The position numbers were made by a program, and so were the translations under genes. The notes below the pieces were generated by a model. That model saw nothing but the letters and a program-made list of their open reading frames with translations. It ran no database searches and had not been told where the DNA came from. This document shows, piece by piece, positions 23,065-32,091 of a stretch of DNA of 64,000 bases. Positions within the stretch are counted from its first letter, which is position 1. The number at the start of each line of letters is the position of its first letter. Source of the DNA: Rhodococcus sp. G-MC3 (GTDB taxonomy: Bacteria; Actinomycetota; Actinomycetes; Mycobacteriales; Mycobacteriaceae); NCBI RefSeq assembly GCF_030063335.1, contig NZ_JASISW010000004.1, positions 248,001 through 312,000 on the forward strand, written 5' to 3'.

Positions 23065-24327
23065 TCAGGCTCGGGAGAATGAAATCGCCACCGCACCGAG
23101 CGCACCGACCAGAGCGAATGCGTAGAAACCCCACGGCGACGCCAGGCCTGCGCCTAGAAGTGCACCACCGAGAATCGGTCCACAGATCGCACCGAGGCGC
23201 CCGATACCTGCCGACCAACCGAGCGCAGTCGCGCGTGCTTCGGGCGGATACGCGGCACTGGTGAACGCGTAGACCAGCACCTGCGCACTGAAGACGAAGC
23301 AGCCGGCGAGGAACACGAGAACGTACACACCGAACGGAAGCTTGATGCTCAGTGCCGCAAGGAACAGAGCAGCGCAAGAAAACCAGAAAATAGCCGCAGT
23401 GCGTGCACCGATTTTGTTCGCCACTCGGCCAGCGACGAGAAGTCCGACGACGGCACCGAAATTGAGTACCAGTAGAAGTGTCAAGGCCGCGCCCAGTTCG
23501 TATCCTGCCGCGCGCATGATGGTCGGCAACCAGGTGTTGAGCCCGTACACGAGCAGCAGACCCATGAACGACGTGATCCAGATGGCCACACTGTTTCGAA
23601 TCATGCCGCGAGAGAACAACGTTCGGATCGGGTTGACCACGGGCGCCGGATCGGTAGGTGCAGGCTCCAACTGCAGGCCGTGCGCCGACGCCACCGCCTC
23701 TGCCTCCTCGCGGCGTCCCTTGATCAGCAGGTAGGCGGGCGACTCGGGCAGGTATTTGAACATCAGCGGCAACAGTACGAGCGATGGCACTGCTCCGGCG
23801 ACGAACATCGATTGCCACCCGAACGGTTCGATCAGCACCAGCGCAAGCACCGCAGTTCCGACGGCACCGACGTGGTATCCGGTCATCACCGTGGTCGAGG
23901 CCGAACCCGACTTGCGCCGGGGCGAGAACTCGGTGACGAGTGCGAGCGCAGTCGGCAGTGCTCCTCCGAGCCCGACGCCTGCGAGGAACCGCAGGAGACC
24001 GAACACCAACGGGTTCGGCGCGAATGCACACAGCAGCGTCAGCAACGAGAAGGCAGCCACAGCGACGATCAACGATTTACGACGACCGAGCACGTCGGTG
24101 AGAGTTCCGATCGTCAGCGCTCCGATCGTCATGCCGACCAAACCTGCCGTAGAGATTGCGGTGATGGTCGCGGTATCGGCGCCGAAGGCGGTGTCATCGA
24201 GGATCGATGGGATCGAGGCACCGAGAACCACTAGATCGAAACCGTCGAGAAGCACGGAGACCCAGCAGAGGGCAACCACTACCCGTGCCGTCCCAGACGT
24301 GACGGTGGCCGTAGAAGTCGAGGTCAT
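23065..24327 (-). CDS. MFS transporter, aromatic acid:H+ symporter type
   Basis: A 420-residue 12-helix MFS protein of the AAHS type (PcaK/BenK relatives). It has the DGFDLVVLGASIPSIL first helix, the GTLTDVLGRRKS loop 2-3 signature and the PESPAYLLIKGRREEAEAV central loop. Relatives import aromatic acids such as 4-hydroxybenzoate. It follows the mycosporine-type operon on the same strand after a 111-base gap that carries its own dyads, so it may be a separate unit. Transport of the aromatic-like product or precursor is possible but unproven. Confidence 0.85.
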   Translation of the reverse strand: MTSTSTATVTSGTARVVVALCWVSVLLDGFDLVVLGASIPSILDDTAFGADTATITAISTAGLVGMTIGALTIGTLTDVLGRRKSLIVAVAAFSLLTLLCAFAPNPLVFGLLRFLAGVGLGGALPTALALVTEFSPRRKSGSASTTVMTGYHVGAVGTAVLALVLIEPFGWQSMFVAGAVPSLVLLPLMFKYLPESPAYLLIKGRREEAEAVASAHGLQLEPAPTDPAPVVNPIRTLFSRGMIRNSVAIWITSFMGLLLVYGLNTWLPTIMRAAGYELGAALTLLLVLNFGAVVGLLVAGRVANKIGARTAAIFWFSCAALFLAALSIKLPFGVYVLVFLAGCFVFSAQVLVYAFTSAAYPPEARATALGWSAGIGRLGAICGPILGGALLGAGLASPWGFYAFALVGALGAVAISFSRA

Positions 24328-24438: not shown

Positions 24439-25197
24439 TCAGCCGCCGGCCACCATTCCTCGGTGCATGACACGGTCGCCTACAACGCCGGAGTGGTCGG
24501 CCTTGTGCATCACGCACCGGTTGTCCCACATCACCACGTCGCCGGGTGACCACGAATGTCGGTACACGTTCGGTTCTCGCGTCGAGTGGTCCACGAGGTA
24601 CTCGATGAACTCGGCGCCGTCGGATTCCGACATTCCGCTCACAGCGACGCACCGCGCGGGCGCCGACAAGTAGAGCGACTTTTGATGCGACAGAGGGTGC
24701 TTCAACACCAGAGGATGAACAGCGGAGCCGTCCATGCCCGCGAGGCCCGTGACTCGGTGGGTGACTTTTCGACGATCGACGAACGAGCGATCCGCCGCCG
24801 GCAGGGTGGCGTACGCGCGGTACTGATTGCTGAACAGGGTCTGGCCTCCGGCAGCAGGTACTTCGACGGCGCGAAGAGCCGTGTAGGCCGGTGGATGCCG
24901 AACGTACGTGGTGTCGACATGAAAGGTCGACTTCGGTGGCGTCTTTCGCCCGACGTTGCTGATGACATTCAGGTCGGAGTATCCGTCGACGGGCGTCTCG
25001 CCCTCGGTGAACACGAGGTCACCGAAACATCGGAGGAACGAGACGAACTCGACATCGTCGATGTTTTGACTCCGGATGACCAGTACACCGTGTTCCGCCA
25101 GTAGGCGCCTCAGTTCGGCGATCTCGTGAGATCCGAGACAACCCACGTGGACGTCGTCGACCCCTGCCCCGATCGGAGCGAATGCCTCATGTCTCAC
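24439..25197 (-). CDS. TauD/TfdA Fe(II)/2-oxoglutarate dioxygenase, last gene of MAA operon
   Basis: A 252-residue dioxygenase of the TauD/TfdA family, using Fe(II), O2 and 2-oxoglutarate. The facial triad is visible: HVD in STFHVDTTYVRHPPAY, and the distal His in VMWDNRCVMHKAD. The 2-oxoglutarate-binding Arg is in VMHRGMVAG. The GTG at 25197 overlaps the mysD stop by 4 bases, so it is translationally coupled to mycosporine-type synthesis. By context it should oxidise the imino-amino acid product or a side chain, as the Fe/2OG enzyme MysH does when it makes palythines in cyanobacteria. Whether it is a MysH homologue or an independent analogue is not known. It is slightly shorter than typical TauD (about 280). 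Confidence 0.82.
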   Translation of the reverse strand: MRHEAFAPIGAGVDDVHVGCLGSHEIAELRRLLAEHGVLVIRSQNIDDVEFVSFLRCFGDLVFTEGETPVDGYSDLNVISNVGRKTPPKSTFHVDTTYVRHPPAYTALRAVEVPAAGGQTLFSNQYRAYATLPAADRSFVDRRKVTHRVTGLAGMDGSAVHPLVLKHPLSHQKSLYLSAPARCVAVSGMSESDGAEFIEYLVDHSTREPNVYRHSWSPGDVVMWDNRCVMHKADHSGVVGDRVMHRGMVAGG

Positions 25198-26231
25198 GAC
25201 GTCGTCCTTTCCCGTGACAACTCGCCGAGCGAGTGGGCGAACAGTTCGGTGACCGATATCCCTGCCGCCGCCGCCATCACTGCGACGACACTGCTCGGCG
25301 AGTACGAGCAGTACAGTCCGGCTTCGAGGAACCACACCTCACCATCGGGGTCGATACGAAAATCGAACAGGCTGTAATGACGGCAACCCAGCGCGACGTG
25401 GCACCGACGTGCTGCGGCCCAGACCTTCTCGGTGATCGGATCGTCGACATCGACGATCCATGCTCGCGTGTCGTTCTTGGCTACGAGATACAGATCCCCG
25501 TCCGGCGTTCGATCCAGCTTGTCGGAGCGTCCTCGAATCGGATTCGACTCCTTGTCGACGGCGTATTCCTCGAGCGGCAGGCACATCAATTCACCATCGA
25601 TGACGACGATGCCGCAGCGCACTTCGCGTCCCAGCTCGATGTACTGCTCGATCAACACGGCTCTCGACAATTTCAGCGCTTCGCTGATCGCATCGTCGAG
25701 AGCTTCCGAATCCCGAACCAGGGCAACGCCCATCGAGTTGTCGGAGTCCACGGGCTTCACAACGACGGGAAGCTCGGTCTCACTCACGCCGACAGCTCGT
25801 GCCAGCTCACCCCGCGGAACAGCAACTCCCGCTGCCGCAACGACGGCGCGGGCGTAGCTCTTGTCCGCGGTCATTGCCATCACCTCAGGGGTGTTACCGA
25901 GATACGGCACCCCGAGCAGATCGAAAAGACTTCGGTACGACGTCATTCCGGGCCGACAGAACATCTGCGGCACCATCACGTCGATGCCTTCGGCTGCAAT
26001 CCTGGCGATTGCCTCGGCTGCCGACAATGTTTGCGCCATGGAGATATCCACGAGTTCGACACCGCTGGGAAAGCACCAACCTCCGTCTGGGGAGACGAAC
26101 GCGATGGTCAGCCGGTAGCCCGGCTCGTCGGCGAAAGCAGCGAGGAACCCTTTCGCATACACCCGCGACAGTTCGGCGTGAAAGTCATCCACGGCCGAGC
26201 CGACGAGCGCCAGAACGGTTCGCGTCACCAT
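25194..26231 (-). CDS. mysD: D-Ala-D-Ala ligase-like enzyme (MysD type)
   Basis: A 345-residue ATP-grasp ligase of the D-alanine-D-alanine ligase family. It has GVPYLGNTPEVMAMTADKSYARAVVAAAGV, PVVVKPVDSDNSMGVALVRD (ATP-binding lysine strand) and FDFRIDPDGEVWFLEAGLYCSYSP (metal-binding segment). In mycosporine-like amino acid clusters this enzyme joins a second amino acid, typically serine or threonine, to mycosporine-glycine to give shinorine or porphyra-334. Its ATG overlaps the mysC stop by one base. The genuine peptidoglycan Ddl would be expected near cell-wall genes, which are absent here. The amino acid it adds cannot be read from sequence. Confidence 0.85.
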   Translation of the reverse strand: MVTRTVLALVGSAVDDFHAELSRVYAKGFLAAFADEPGYRLTIAFVSPDGGWCFPSGVELVDISMAQTLSAAEAIARIAAEGIDVMVPQMFCRPGMTSYRSLFDLLGVPYLGNTPEVMAMTADKSYARAVVAAAGVAVPRGELARAVGVSETELPVVVKPVDSDNSMGVALVRDSEALDDAISEALKLSRAVLIEQYIELGREVRCGIVVIDGELMCLPLEEYAVDKESNPIRGRSDKLDRTPDGDLYLVAKNDTRAWIVDVDDPITEKVWAAARRCHVALGCRHYSLFDFRIDPDGEVWFLEAGLYCSYSPSSVVAVMAAAAGISVTELFAHSLGELSRERTTS

Positions 26232-27529
26232 CAGTCACCGCCTGTCTCGACCAATTTGCCGATGTTGAAATCGATTCGTGTCCATTCGCGCCCACTCCTC
26301 AAGTTCTTCAACAGCAGACTCGGAACCTGGAGATGGTGGACGAGCAGATACGGGAGAGGATCCCACTGCGCGTAGATCGCATCGGTTCCCCCGGTGATCA
26401 CACGGAGCCGATCGCGCCGCGAGGAGCGAGTCACCAAGCCCCAGAGTTCGTGGTAGATCCAGTACGTCGGTTTCGCTTCCGGCTTCGGCACGAGAACATC
26501 GTCTGCGGTTTCCAGATACGCACCGGCCAGACCCGGATGGTTGTAGAACATCGTGATGGCCGAATGCGTGCGCGGATTGCATTCGATGGCGTAGACCTGT
26601 CCGTCTGCAGCCTCGATGAAGTCGAACGACAACTGTCCGGTAACGCCGAGCGCGCCCACGAATGTCTGTACCCAGGCCAAGATATCGGGCTTGTCCACCA
26701 TCGCATAGTTGACCTGGAATGCGGAGGACTCGCAGCAACCGTAGACCTGTAGTGCACCGCTGCGCACCGTTCCGTGAGTGCAGTACTCCTGGCCGGAAAT
26801 GAACTCTTGCAGGATCCAGGGGTCGCTGTCGGAGATGGACAGAGTGCGCGCGAACGCCAAGTTCTTCTCGGGCGTCTGCGCCGACAGCCGAGTGAGATCC
26901 ATTCGGCCCACCGGGTTGTAGGCGATCCGTTTGAGGATGTATTCACGCCCCGCTCGAAAGTCGAACGATGCAATCTGCTCGGCATCGGTGATGCGGGCCC
27001 AATGCGGCACCGACAGCCCCAGACCGGTTGCGGCCGCGGAGAATGCACTCTTGTCGTCCAACATCCCGACGACTTCGGCGTTGCCGTGGATCACCTCGCA
27101 CTGCTCGTCGAGCAAGGTCATCGCCGCAGCATCGTGGATACTTGCCGCTGGACTCGCAACCGGAACGAACACGTCCACTCTCTCGTGCTCCACCAGTTCG
27201 AGAAGTGCTCTGGCGTAGCCAGGTTCGGTCGGTTCGGGTATGCAATGGAAGCTATCGACAGCGCGAGAGAACCGGTGGCCGGTGTACCGGTACTTGGCCG
27301 ATTCAGCCAGGACGACTCGGTGTCCGGCAAGGTGAAATGCCCGGGCGAGGCTCAGCGCCTTCGTCATCTTGCCCCCGGTTACCAAGACTGTTCGTCCCGA
27401 TGGCGCGGCGGCGGCGGGTCGCCTGCGCAGCAGTGCGACCCCGACGACGGCTGCATCGATCGGCAGAGTCAAGAGCAGAGCGCCCAAGGCTCCGGCCGTT
27501 CGCAACCTGGCACGGCAGTGCACGGGCAT
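26231..27529 (-). CDS. mysC: ATP-grasp mycosporine-glycine synthase (MysC type)
   Basis: A 432-residue ATP-grasp enzyme. It begins with a hydrophobic segment (ALGALLLTLPIDAAVVGVALL, about 14-35), as MysC proteins of cyanobacteria do. Then come VLVTGGKMTKALSLARAFHLAGHRVVLAE, the ATP-binding EYILKRIAYNP strand and GQLSFDFIEAADGQVYAIECNPRTHSAI. MysC activates 4-deoxygadusol and couples glycine to form mycosporine-glycine. The ATG follows the mysB stop with no gap (TAG then ATG). Predicted attachment to the membrane by the N-terminal helix is inference. Confidence 0.88.
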   Translation of the reverse strand: MPVHCRARLRTAGALGALLLTLPIDAAVVGVALLRRRPAAAAPSGRTVLVTGGKMTKALSLARAFHLAGHRVVLAESAKYRYTGHRFSRAVDSFHCIPEPTEPGYARALLELVEHERVDVFVPVASPAASIHDAAAMTLLDEQCEVIHGNAEVVGMLDDKSAFSAAATGLGLSVPHWARITDAEQIASFDFRAGREYILKRIAYNPVGRMDLTRLSAQTPEKNLAFARTLSISDSDPWILQEFISGQEYCTHGTVRSGALQVYGCCESSAFQVNYAMVDKPDILAWVQTFVGALGVTGQLSFDFIEAADGQVYAIECNPRTHSAITMFYNHPGLAGAYLETADDVLVPKPEAKPTYWIYHELWGLVTRSSRRDRLRVITGGTDAIYAQWDPLPYLLVHHLQVPSLLLKNLRSGREWTRIDFNIGKLVETGGD

Positions 27530-28360
27530 CTACGCGTCGACTCGGCGAATCAGTGTCACCCCGTCACGCATCGGCAGCAGTACCTGCTCGACACGGGAAT
27601 CCTGCACCAAAAATCTGTTGAATTCGTCCACTGCATCTCCGTTGGGGGTTCTGCTGCCTGCGTCGGCGTAGGGCGCGCCCTGCAGCAGGGTGTTGTCGAC
27701 GGCGATCACCGCGTTCGGCGACAACAGGTCGCTGTCGATCAGCGCCCGGTAGTAGTCGAGGTAGCCCGTCTTGTCGGCGTCGATGAACACCAGATCGAAA
27801 GGTGTCGATGTCCCCTTCAAACGAGCCAGTGTCTTCGCTGCCGGCCCGATCTCGACGGTGATCCGGTCACCAGCCGAGGACGATGTGAAACACTCACGCG
27901 CGACGTCGGCGACGAACTCGTCGACCTCGCATGCGACCACCTCGCCGCCCGCCGGTAACGCTTCGGCCATCGCCAAGGCGGAGTAGCCCGTGAACATGCC
28001 GATCTCCAGCACTCGCCGAGCCCCGGTCATGTGCACCAAGAATTTGAGCAGTTGCCCCTCGACGTGTCCCGAAAGCATCTCCTGCTCCAACGGACCCGAA
28101 CCCGACACGACGGCCCTCGACGCCCAATGCATGCTCTGCGTTCGGCGTGACAGCTCGGCCAATGCCGATGACTCGGGAGTGGTGCACGAGTCGAGGTACG
28201 GATCGAGGCCGGTTGCCAGATCTCGCGCCCGGCGCAACCGGAACGACAACTCCTCGGGGACATCGCACGACTCCAACAGTTTTGCCAGTTCCGTCAGCTC
28301 CGAAGCGAGGATGGTGGTCGGAGTGACCGGCCTCGGCGGAAGGGTGACCAACTCAGTCAT
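27530..28360 (-). CDS. mysB: SAM-dependent O-methyltransferase (MysB type)
   Basis: A 276-residue class I O-methyltransferase related to caffeoyl-CoA methyltransferases. The SAM motif is [20 protein letters not shown], followed by [10 protein letters not shown] and [20 protein letters not shown]. In the mycosporine pathway this step methylates 2-demethyl-4-deoxygadusol to 4-deoxygadusol. The ATG at 28360 is chosen because it overlaps the end of the cyclase gene by 8 bases; codons before it belong to that gene. The C-terminus ends exactly at the mysC start. Confidence 0.88.
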
Positions 28361-29576
28361 CGGTTCCGTCGCGACCACTGGTGAACATGTCGATGCCCTC
28401 GCCGCCACGATCGAAATCGAGGCAGATCTTCTTGTGCAGCGTCAGCACGTCCCCCAACTCATCCGTTGTGATGTCGTTGAGAAAACTGCACGAGCCGATG
28501 GGGTCGGGAACGGCGGCGCGCAGCATGCCGTCACGCGTCTTCAGAATGGACGCGGTTGCGTCCGTGAGGAGTTCGGGCGTGAGATACGGACTGTCGAGCG
28601 CGAGTCCGAGGCGGCTCATGGCGCCGAGGACACGGTCACGGTCCTCCGACGATATCTGCCCTCGCTGCTCGGCAAGTGTCGTGGACAACGCCATGTCGAT
28701 ATTGATGGCGTGGCCGTGAAAGAAAGGCGCAGGGGGCGTAAGTTCGAGCGTCGGACTCCAGGTGTGACCGAACGCGATCACGCGGTCCAGTTCGATCTCG
28801 TGCAGATTCGGAGCTTCGAGCTCGAGCATGGTCTCGATGGCCTGATACGTGAGGCGGTCTGCGACTGCTCGAAGCTCTGCGCTGCCGTCGAGATGTCCGA
28901 ATCGAGTGCGAAGCAACTCGGTTCCATGTTCGTCGAGCATGTCGAAGATGGCCGAGTTACCGACCACCGAGATTTTGATCAACTCGGCCATACCGTTTCG
29001 GACCTGGTCCTCGGGGAGTGTGCCCAGGAACGAGAAGTCGAGCAACACCTTTTGCGACGCGTGGTACGCACCCAACCGGTTCTTGTGCTTGCCGTAGTTG
29101 ACCGCCACCTTGATCGACACGCTTGCGTCGATGAGACCGATCAGCGTGGTCGGGATGCGAATGTACGGAGTGTTGCGTCGGTAACCGGCGCACGCGAATC
29201 CTGCTACGTCGGTGGTCAATCCGCCGCCGACCACCAGAACGGGTTCGGTGCGTATCAACCCGAACGAGTCGAACTCGCCGACGATGCGCTCGAAAGTTTC
29301 CAACGATTTCGCAGTCTCGGCAATCTTGACCGGCACCACAGTCAGTTCGATCTCATGATGTGTGAAGTAAGAGTGAATCCTGTCTCCGTAGATGGAGTAG
29401 ACCGACTCGTCGACCACCATCAGACAACGGCCGTAGCCCCGGTAGCTGTTGGCGAGCTCGTGATTTTCAGGCGCGAACACTCCGTCGACGTAGATCAGAT
29501 CGTATTCGATCTTCTCGTATCCCTCGACGTGAAACGCTCGTTCGGTCGCGGTGACCTGCGCTTGCATTGTGCTCAT
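28353..29576 (-). CDS. mysA: Sugar phosphate cyclase, DDGS-like (MysA type)
   Basis: A 407-residue NAD-dependent sugar phosphate cyclase of the dehydroquinate synthase superfamily. It has the [13 protein letters not shown] nucleotide site (about 115-127), a [17 protein letters not shown] block (156-172) and MAELIKISV. The segment [11 protein letters not shown] (269-279) replaces the HTFGHAIE of true dehydroquinate synthase, as in the EEVS/DDGS branches. With mysB, mysC and mysD next to it, 2-demethyl-4-deoxygadusol synthase, acting on sedoheptulose 7-phosphate, is the best call. A 2-epi-5-epi-valiolone synthase cannot be strictly excluded by eye. The ATG overlaps the HAD gene stop by 4 bases. 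Confidence 0.87.
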
Positions 29577-30244
29577 GCGTTATCACCTTCGGCCAACGTG
29601 CTCAGCCGGTTGGGGTCGAGACGGTCGACAACCTCCTCCGCGGCAGAGAAGTCTCCGCCGGTCGTGTTGGCGTTCGGGAATGCGACGCAGCGGATGGACG
29701 CGGCGGCCGCCGATGCCACTCCGCCTTCGTTGTCTTCGATGGCAACACAGTGGGCCGCGTCTTCGCCGAGACTGTCGACGGCGAAAAGGTAGGACGCAGG
29801 GTCGGGCTTGACTTGCGACACCGCCGTGGTGTCCACGACGACATCGAACGAGTCTGCGCTCAGTGTCTCGAACGAATCCAGAAGCGCAGACACGTTTTCC
29901 GGAGATGTCGTGGTCACGAGGCCGAGTTTGAACCCGTGTTCCCGTGCTTTCGCCATCGTGTCGAGAACGCCAGGCCTCGGTTCGATTCCCTCGGTGGCAA
30001 GAAGGGTGCGAAAAATCTCGGATTTCGTCGAATGCACTGCGGCGGAGTCGACTTCTTGATTCTTGGAAGCCGCGTAGTCGGCAATGCGGGAGGCGCCCCC
30101 GTTACCACCGAGCATCGACGCGTAGTCCTCACGCGACCACGTCCAGCCCAGGTCGTGCTTCGCGAAGGCGTCGTTGAATGCTCGTCGTTGCATTTCCGAA
30201 GTGTCGGCGAGCGTACTGATGGATCCGAACAATATGGCGGTCAT
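29573..30244 (-). CDS. HAD-fold protein lacking the catalytic Asp pair
   Basis: A 223-residue CbbY/phosphoglucomutase-like HAD protein that opens the mycosporine-type operon. The cap and core motifs are present: [22 protein letters not shown], motif [11 protein letters not shown], motif III SQVKPDP and motif [12 protein letters not shown]. Motif I reads [14 protein letters not shown] instead of hhhhDxDGT. Gly7 stands where the nucleophile should be and Ile9 where the acid should be. Classical phosphatase chemistry is therefore not expected; a binding, scaffolding or regulatory role in sugar phosphate handling is possible. GGAGGG precedes the ATG at 30244. Recollection of similar GSIGTL-type HAD sequences in other bacteria suggests a subfamily, but this is unverified. 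Confidence 0.8.
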
Positions 30245-30440: not shown

Positions 30441-31958
30441 CTAGGACTTCCGATCCCACGCGAGGAGCGCGAGCAGGATCTCGGCACGGACCCTTGCCTG
30501 CCCGAGATCGCACTCGAGCACCTCTTCGATTCGAGCGATCCGGGCGCGCAGTGTGTGCCGATGAATGCCGAGTCTCGACGCCGCCGACTCCCACTGACCG
30601 TTCATTTCCAGATAGGTGCGCAACGTCGTCACCAAGGTGCCGGTGTGCGCGCCGTCGTATTTCGCGAGAACGGGAACGATGGTCGAAGCGATCGTCAACA
30701 ACACCTCTCGTGCCGATTGCGATGCCAGCACTGTGTCTTCGCCCAGTGCGCGGAACTGACGGACCGGCGATTGTGGTGTCGCCAGATCGCATGCCAACCG
30801 CGCCTCCTCCAGCGCATGTTTCGCGTCGGTAATCGGGTGGATGTCGCTCAAGCCCGCGCGTAGCGAACTGCGCACTGCTCCGGGCAATCCGGCGAGCATT
30901 CCCCGCACGTACCCCAGATCGTCGGTTCCACCGAGAAGTACGGTGAGCGCTTCGGTACCGTTCTGAGCGAACATGTTTCGGCCAATACTCGCCAGCGCGC
31001 TTTCGATGTGGTCTTCGACGGCCCCGATCGCGTCGGCACCGAGCAGCAGCACTCGGACATTGCCATCGGGGTCTGCTGCATCACCGAGCACCGTTTCCAA
31101 GGATTCGGCCGACACGCTGTCGTGCAACAGAAGAGCGAGAGCTGTTGTATTGAGCTGCGATTGTCTAGATCGCAACCGCGTCGACTTCTCGAGTTCCATC
31201 GTCAGCAAAGACACCGCGTGGCCGAGCAGTATGCGATCGATGTTGGACAGGGAACCCTTGGAGGACACCGCGAGGTAATCGCGCGCACCGGCTCCTGTAC
31301 CCACCGACTGAAGGGTGAGTGTGTGTTCGGGAGTCCCGACGGTAATCGACGCCCCCGTCGGCGCAGCCCCGCTGCGCTCGATGGCGGCGCGGGCCTCGTT
31401 CGGCAATTCGCGACGATCAGGCGGATGTACCAGCGATGTACGCGGCCCGACGAGCGCAACGGCGCTCGACGTCGCGAGTGCAAGCTCACGCACCACAGCC
31501 GACGATCCCCCACGTAGCGCACTCCTGGTCATCCGCGTTTGAACCGTCGCGGCGCGCAGCACGTGCTCGTAGTCCTGCTCTGCGAGCCGAGCCATGACAG
31601 CCCTGGTGACTGCGGCGAACGGAGTTGTCAACGGAACCTCGAGCAATGGGAGTCCGTATTGATCGGCTGCCCGGATCAACGCATCCGGAATTTTCGCATG
31701 GGAAAGTCCGGTGCCGAATGCGAGCGCCGCAACGTTCGCATGATCCAACCTCTCGACATAGGCGGTGAGCCCTGTCGCAGCGGGCGAGAAGTCCAACCCT
31801 GTTGTCAGAACCAGCTCACCGCCGGACAGCCATGGCGAAGGATCCTGCAATTCGGTCGGTTGGACGAACTGAATTTCACGTATCGCGCGCTCGGGTCCAC
31901 CGCGCCGTTCCAACGCCAGTTGCTGCTGCCCAAGCAACCACGCAATGGAGACCGTCAC
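30441..31958 (-). CDS. PucR-family regulator of GABA genes
   Basis: A 505-residue PucR-type activator. The N-terminal purine-catabolism-like sensory domain (PTELQDPSPWLSGGELVLTTGLDF) is followed by a GGDEF-like middle region and a C-terminal helix-turn-helix (TYLEMNGQWESAASRLGIHRHTLRARIARIEEVL). The GTG at 31958 is preferred over longer frames because AAGGAG lies 7 bases before it. It is divergent from gabT across 198 bases that contain paired palindromes, matching the GabR-like role of PucR proteins in GABA use. It is also upstream of the mycosporine-type operon, but its target is more likely gabT-gabD. Confidence 0.82.
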   Translation of the reverse strand: MTVSIAWLLGQQQLALERRGGPERAIREIQFVQPTELQDPSPWLSGGELVLTTGLDFSPAATGLTAYVERLDHANVAALAFGTGLSHAKIPDALIRAADQYGLPLLEVPLTTPFAAVTRAVMARLAEQDYEHVLRAATVQTRMTRSALRGGSSAVVRELALATSSAVALVGPRTSLVHPPDRRELPNEARAAIERSGAAPTGASITVGTPEHTLTLQSVGTGAGARDYLAVSSKGSLSNIDRILLGHAVSLLTMELEKSTRLRSRQSQLNTTALALLLHDSVSAESLETVLGDAADPDGNVRVLLLGADAIGAVEDHIESALASIGRNMFAQNGTEALTVLLGGTDDLGYVRGMLAGLPGAVRSSLRAGLSDIHPITDAKHALEEARLACDLATPQSPVRQFRALGEDTVLASQSAREVLLTIASTIVPVLAKYDGAHTGTLVTTLRTYLEMNGQWESAASRLGIHRHTLRARIARIEEVLECDLGQARVRAEILLALLAWDRKS

Positions 31959-32091
31959 AAGATCACTCCTTCTGGCGCAACTAGCGCACACCGTTGTGGA
32001 GTGCACAATCGATGCTAGTGGACATTTCGGCACTCGGCAGCTGGTCCGTACTGATCGATACTGAACAACGAGGGAGCAGTGACGTCAGGAA

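Follow-up and report, generated by a model that had tools for sequence, protein, structure and literature searches.

The cyanobacterial mysABCD genes (Anabaena/Nostoc) encode a desmethyl-4-deoxygadusol synthase (DDGS), an O-methyltransferase, an ATP-grasp ligase and a D-Ala-D-Ala-ligase (Ddl)-like ligase, and serve the synthesis of mycosporine-like amino acids (MAAs), small sunscreen molecules that absorb UV light. All four gene types are shared by the Rhodococcus operon described here, which differs in having genes for a HAD protein and a TauD protein beside them. DDGS is told apart from the related cyclase EEVS by two fingerprint sites (eLife paper). Two cyanobacterial oxygenases, MysH and the TauD-type MysI of Nostoc, are proposed to hydroxylate the glycine group of the MAA, which is then lost (PMC10510106).

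Outside the cyanobacteria, HAD and TauD/TfdA proteins are conserved in MAA clusters, according to passages of the GATOR-GC preprint (2025, PMC11888242). These passages call the role of the HAD unvalidated, so that its function in the actinobacterial clusters is explicitly an open question. They also cite unpublished work in which shinorine, palythine and palythine-serine were obtained from the operon of Rhodococcus fascians D188 after its transfer to Streptomyces coelicolor M1152. The D188 operon and the GATOR-GC clusters have the same six gene types as the present one, with HAD and TauD conserved and palythines proposed as products, and the operon is thus not new in kind but belongs to a type that the preprint passages already describe. 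The main text of the preprint does not contain the word “nucleophile”, and its passages on these clusters mention neither a relation to CbbY nor the retention of the HAD where TauD is missing. A text search of a limited literature collection returned no further paper on MAA clusters with HAD and TauD.

Gene content and distribution of the operon

The window (the whole 64,000-nucleotide stretch of DNA that was analysed) carries a leftward run of six genes, all with their open reading frames on the minus strand. The run starts with a CbbY-like HAD-fold protein (29573..30244; HAD_2, 4e-23), followed by DDGS (mysA, 28353..29576; DHQ_synthase, 3e-29), an O-methyltransferase (mysB, 27530..28360; Methyltransf_3, 2e-47), an ATP-grasp ligase (mysC, 26231..27529), a D-Ala-D-Ala-ligase-like ATP-grasp protein (mysD, 25194..26231; Dala_Dala_lig_C, 3e-20) and a TauD/TfdA Fe(II)/2-oxoglutarate dioxygenase (24439..25197, with a GTG start at 25197; TauD, 1.9e-52). 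The mysC product matches NF005315/PRK06849 with 411 bits, above the cut-off of 406. Successive genes overlap by 4, 8, 0, 1 and 4 bases. This is the arrangement that an earlier note on this DNA had described (six leftward genes, overlaps of 0 to 8 bases), and the families it gave to the six genes are those found with Pfam and NCBIfam; the hydrophobic N-terminal helix that it saw on the ATP-grasp protein is also present.

The O-methyltransferase and the MysC-type ATP-grasp protein lie next to the cyclase, in synteny with cyanobacterial mysABC. A ligase for the second amino acid (MysD or MysE) is supplied by the Ddl-like gene, whose 50–52% identical counterparts adjoin mysABC in two cyanobacteria (L091 and L093), and none of the six genes encodes an NRPS. 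The equation of the middle four genes with mysA-B-C-D in the earlier note is accordingly supported by the identity of the cyclase, the family matches and the synteny, and the operon is almost certainly an MAA biosynthetic operon of the actinobacterial type with HAD and TauD.

Scans of the operon found no promoter-like site, and terminators were at or below chance level. A PucR-family regulator (30441-32033) lies upstream on the same strand; it is not counted as part of the operon, being about 3 kb away from it in the closest relative (L032). On the downstream side, the same strand carries an MFS transporter (aromatic acid/H+ symport type, 23065-24327), which does not adjoin the operon in most relatives.

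A scan restricted to named genomes found 79 loci; with further genomes added, the actinobacterial clusters came to 94, in which some species are present from both genome collections. HAD, TauD and the O-methyltransferase are all found in 79 of the 94, and five more have HAD and TauD without the methyltransferase. Six have the HAD but no intact or complete TauD match, three have neither, and one (L059) has a frameshifted HAD gene. In the named-genome scan, nearly all actinobacterial loci follow the order HAD-DDGS-OMT-MysC-MysD-TauD, OMT being the O-methyltransferase; Pseudonocardia, Kineosporia and Nocardioides differ in that their TauD gene comes after OMT and before MysC. These three genera have the gene set in common with Rhodococcoides, Williamsia, Mycolicibacterium and Aeromicrobium. 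The “few actinobacteria” of the earlier note was thus too low an estimate, and the keeping of the same genes in about 90 actinobacterial loci puts the set far beyond chance. The cyanobacterial loci of the scan had neither HAD nor TauD beside the genes. A plasmid origin of the operon was considered and dropped, since no close plasmid copy was found (the best, from Nostoc HK-01, is 62%), and the viral contigs searched gave no match.

Several mycobacterial MAA clusters (L199 and L201, also L063, L067 and L076) are without the MysB methyltransferase. In two of these genomes, the best O-methyltransferase elsewhere scores E 1e-17, and the product of such clusters may therefore be unmethylated.

The cyclase and the predicted product

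The closest solved structure to the cyclase is 5tpr (558 bits, E 9.3e-167), which we take to be the DDGS of Anabaena variabilis, although the title of the entry says dehydroquinate synthase. The EEVS ValA (4p53) comes next with 280 bits. Asp281 and His360 of ValA align with Ala268 and Thr347 in the window cyclase, as in the Anabaena DDGS, and these are presumably the two DDGS/EEVS fingerprint sites known from work on ValA. Judged by its sequence, the cyclase is a true DDGS. DDGS and EEVS are members of one family, the sugar phosphate cyclases, and an EEVS at this position would make the product an aminocyclitol or a gadusol-like compound instead of an MAA; however, the scores of 558 against 280 bits and the Ala268/Thr347 pair led to the rejection of an EEVS or gadusol-type cyclase, and with mysB-C-D downstream of the gene, such a product is extremely improbable. 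The earlier note had singled out a grouping of the cyclase with EEVS as decisive against its reading, and the cyclase does not group there. The other cyclase homologue in the genome is a dehydroquinate-synthase-like protein that is 29% identical.

Two actinobacterial MAA operons (L150:8818-10677 and L151:9131-10991) encode a divergent cyclase that is 37–38% identical to DDGS. In this protein, Lys156 is replaced by Arg and Thr347 by Lys, and the N-terminus is extended by about 150 residues that match no Pfam family. Both operons retain a GSISS-type HAD beside the cyclase, with the gene order reversed.

The pathway would start with the conversion of sedoheptulose 7-phosphate to desmethyl-4-deoxygadusol by DDGS, followed by methylation to 4-deoxygadusol. 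MysC would then add glycine to form mycosporine-glycine, and MysD a second amino acid to give a shinorine-type compound, although which amino acid cannot be predicted from the evidence. In the last step, TauD would hydroxylate the glycine side group, which would fall off and leave a palythine-type MAA.

In the TauD protein, His93, Asp95, His231, Arg242 and Arg246 are invariant in 62 sequences, so that all of the active-site residues are there, and the protein is modelled with a pLDDT of 90.2. We take His93, Asp95 and His231, the HxD...H triad, to be the iron ligands and Arg242 to be the arginine that holds 2-oxoglutarate, as expected of a TauD/TfdA protein. Arg246, four residues further on, presumably corresponds to the residue of E. 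coli TauD that binds the sulfonate or acid group of taurine. The gene matches PF02668 TauD only and does not belong to the phytanoyl-CoA dioxygenase family of MysH.

A palythine-type product, trimmed by TauD, is the likely outcome by analogy with the reaction proposed for MysH and MysI, which are also Fe(II)/2-oxoglutarate oxygenases and are proposed to strip the glycine group to yield palythines. MysI is likewise of the TauD/TfdA type, and MysH differs in belonging to the phytanoyl-CoA dioxygenase type. It is rather unlikely that TauD acts on something besides the glycine group, in another decoration or in catabolism. Such a role would agree with its closest solved relative, PlaO1 (E 1e-31), which is not an MAA enzyme, but it is at odds with the palythines made from a related operon (unpublished, in passages of PMC11888242) and with the proposal of the same chemistry for the TauD-type MysI in Nostoc (PMC10510106). 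The earlier note had suggested a product beyond shinorine or porphyra-334, which is plausible through palythine-type trimming by TauD; the suggestion is not new, having been made in passages of PMC11888242.

The HAD protein and its motif I

By sequence, the nearest solved structures to the HAD are those of the xylulose-1,5-bisphosphate (XuBP) phosphatase CbbY (5e-35), including the XuBP-bound D10N mutant. An AlphaFold2 model (pLDDT 94.6) has the CbbY-like HAD fold with a cap domain and matches CbbY with TM scores of 0.84–0.87, the CbbY-XuBP complex being the top match. The HAD thus shares with CbbY (4uar-4uau) its fold, cap residues and motifs II to IV, but in place of Asp8 (nucleophile), Asp10 (acid/base), Gly11 and His20 of CbbY, the cluster HADs have Gly, Ile, Ser and Gln.

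The change is centred on motif I, which reads FGSIST instead of FDxDGT (residues 7–11, G-S-I-S-T, codons 30212..30226, minus strand). The alignment to CbbY has no gaps here, with Gly7 opposite the nucleophile Asp8 and Ile9 opposite Asp10. The residues were compared between 102 distinct cluster HADs and nine canonical CbbY-like proteins. Not one of the 102 has the nucleophile Asp, which is Gly throughout, and the second Asp is Ile in 101; DxDG is present in all nine relatives. The following Gly has become Ser in 101 of 102, and every cluster HAD has Ser for Glu, Gln for His20, Asn for Ser at 172 and Asn for Tyr at 193. Arg53, His71, Lys74, Lys146, Glu170, Asp171 and Thr194 are retained, and motifs II to IV are present, with Thr111, Lys146 and the Glu170-Asp171 pair invariant. 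Asp14 is not a shifted nucleophile, as it is also found in most of the canonical relatives.

With these switches, standard aspartyl-phosphate catalysis is not expected, although the remaining pocket is conserved. The HAD is very probably not a standard phosphatase. For it to be an ordinary one, motif I would have to be misread or supplied in some other way, which is highly unlikely: the Pfam and NCBIfam labels of HAD hydrolase and the intact motifs II to IV speak for it, but the gap-free motif I is altered in all 102 members, whereas the nine CbbY-like relatives compared keep DxDG. On these motif I states, a plain phosphatase was rejected. A role as an extra biosynthetic hydrolase is not supported, since all cluster members have replaced both the nucleophile and the acid/base Asp. 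The protein probably does something other than its hydrolase annotation says.

We found no prior description of the HAD of these clusters as a member of the CbbY branch that lacks the catalytic nucleophile. The clusters add a conserved HAD family that has lost the defining catalytic residue and is labelled a hydrolase by automatic annotation. The missing nucleophile in an otherwise conserved site makes DDGS binding, complex formation or unusual chemistry worth testing, and not phosphatase activity alone.

Possible roles of the HAD protein

The HAD is closely tied to the MAA genes. In 90/90 clusters, the HAD and cyclase genes share a strand and are no more than 400 bp apart, the HAD being upstream in 88. 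In a sample of 396 genomes of the phylum, the GSIST HAD is found in exactly the seven genomes with MysC, and the other three HAD matches at that cut-off have DxDGT and no adjoining MAA gene. In a sample of 399 genomes of the order, 26 of the 28 with MysC also have the HAD, and the two without it (G118 and G185) are of one genus, with a cluster that also lacks TauD; these co-occurrence counts are not phylogenetically independent. Pairwise HAD distances run parallel to the distances of the remaining operon proteins (correlations of 0.76–0.85), as co-inheritance predicts. The dN/dS ratios of 0.06–0.22 (six pairs) are comparable to those of the other operon genes (against the nearest relative of the window, 0.070 for HAD, 0.066 for DDGS and 0.205 for OMT) and indicate that the HAD is under purifying selection. 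The pathway can do without the HAD, as DDGS works in cyanobacteria that have none beside it and HAD-less clusters occur in G118, G185 and Kineosporia babensis.

TauD is gone and the HAD intact in three clusters (L064, L152 and L215), two of them in genomes without any TauD. Rhodococcus sp. 1168 has a broken TauD pseudogene (L083:12368-12721 and downstream) together with five intact genes, the HAD among them. These clusters weaken the idea of the HAD as a strict accessory of TauD. The opposite case, an intact TauD without a HAD gene, was not seen among the 94 clusters (in L059, the HAD is frameshifted).

The gene context leads us to favour, weakly and tentatively, a role for the HAD as a candidate sugar-phosphate-binding partner of the cyclase. 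This fits best because the HAD outlasts the loss of TauD and adjoins even the divergent cyclase of L150 and L151, although its position beside the cyclase may merely reflect operon inheritance. With its CbbY-family sugar-phosphate-binding fold, and unable to use the normal phosphatase mechanism after the loss of the aspartyl nucleophile, the HAD would bind the cyclase and hold, deliver or sense its ketose phosphate.

The main rival, to which we give a lesser chance, is an enzymatically active HAD that uses a new, non-aspartyl mechanism (through Ser8/Ser10 or a motif IV metal site, for example) and acts on an MAA intermediate, perhaps together with TauD. The substituted residues are polar and invariant (Ser8, Ser10, Ser16, Gln19, Asn172 and Asn193), which suggests a rebuilt site rather than decay, and none of the 94 clusters has an intact TauD in the absence of a HAD gene. 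However, the HAD persists in the TauD-less clusters and beside the TauD pseudogene, and the report of palythine formation by cyanobacterial MysH does not mention a HAD (PMC10510106). In either case, we lean towards a nucleophile-less HAD lineage recruited into bacterial sunscreen operons, for new HAD chemistry or as a sugar-phosphate chaperone or sensor for a sedoheptulose-7-phosphate cyclase. Taken as a whole, the reading as a palythine-type MAA operon with a non-phosphatase HAD, for which the role of a sugar-phosphate-binding cyclase partner is weakly favoured, is fairly likely.

In the genome samples and plasmids covered, one relative of the HAD was found outside the MAA clusters. It is a nucleophile-less GSIGT protein, 43% identical, on plasmid pROLI81 of Roseobacter litoralis (L165:7989-8660), flanked by potassium uptake genes on one side and an L,D-transpeptidase on the other. 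GSIST-type HADs are thus not absolutely exclusive to MAA clusters, and as no cyclase was found on this plasmid, the role of the HAD may not be MAA-specific. The tree places the Roseobacter protein, on a long branch, with the cluster HADs (support 100/98) and separate from canonical CbbY.
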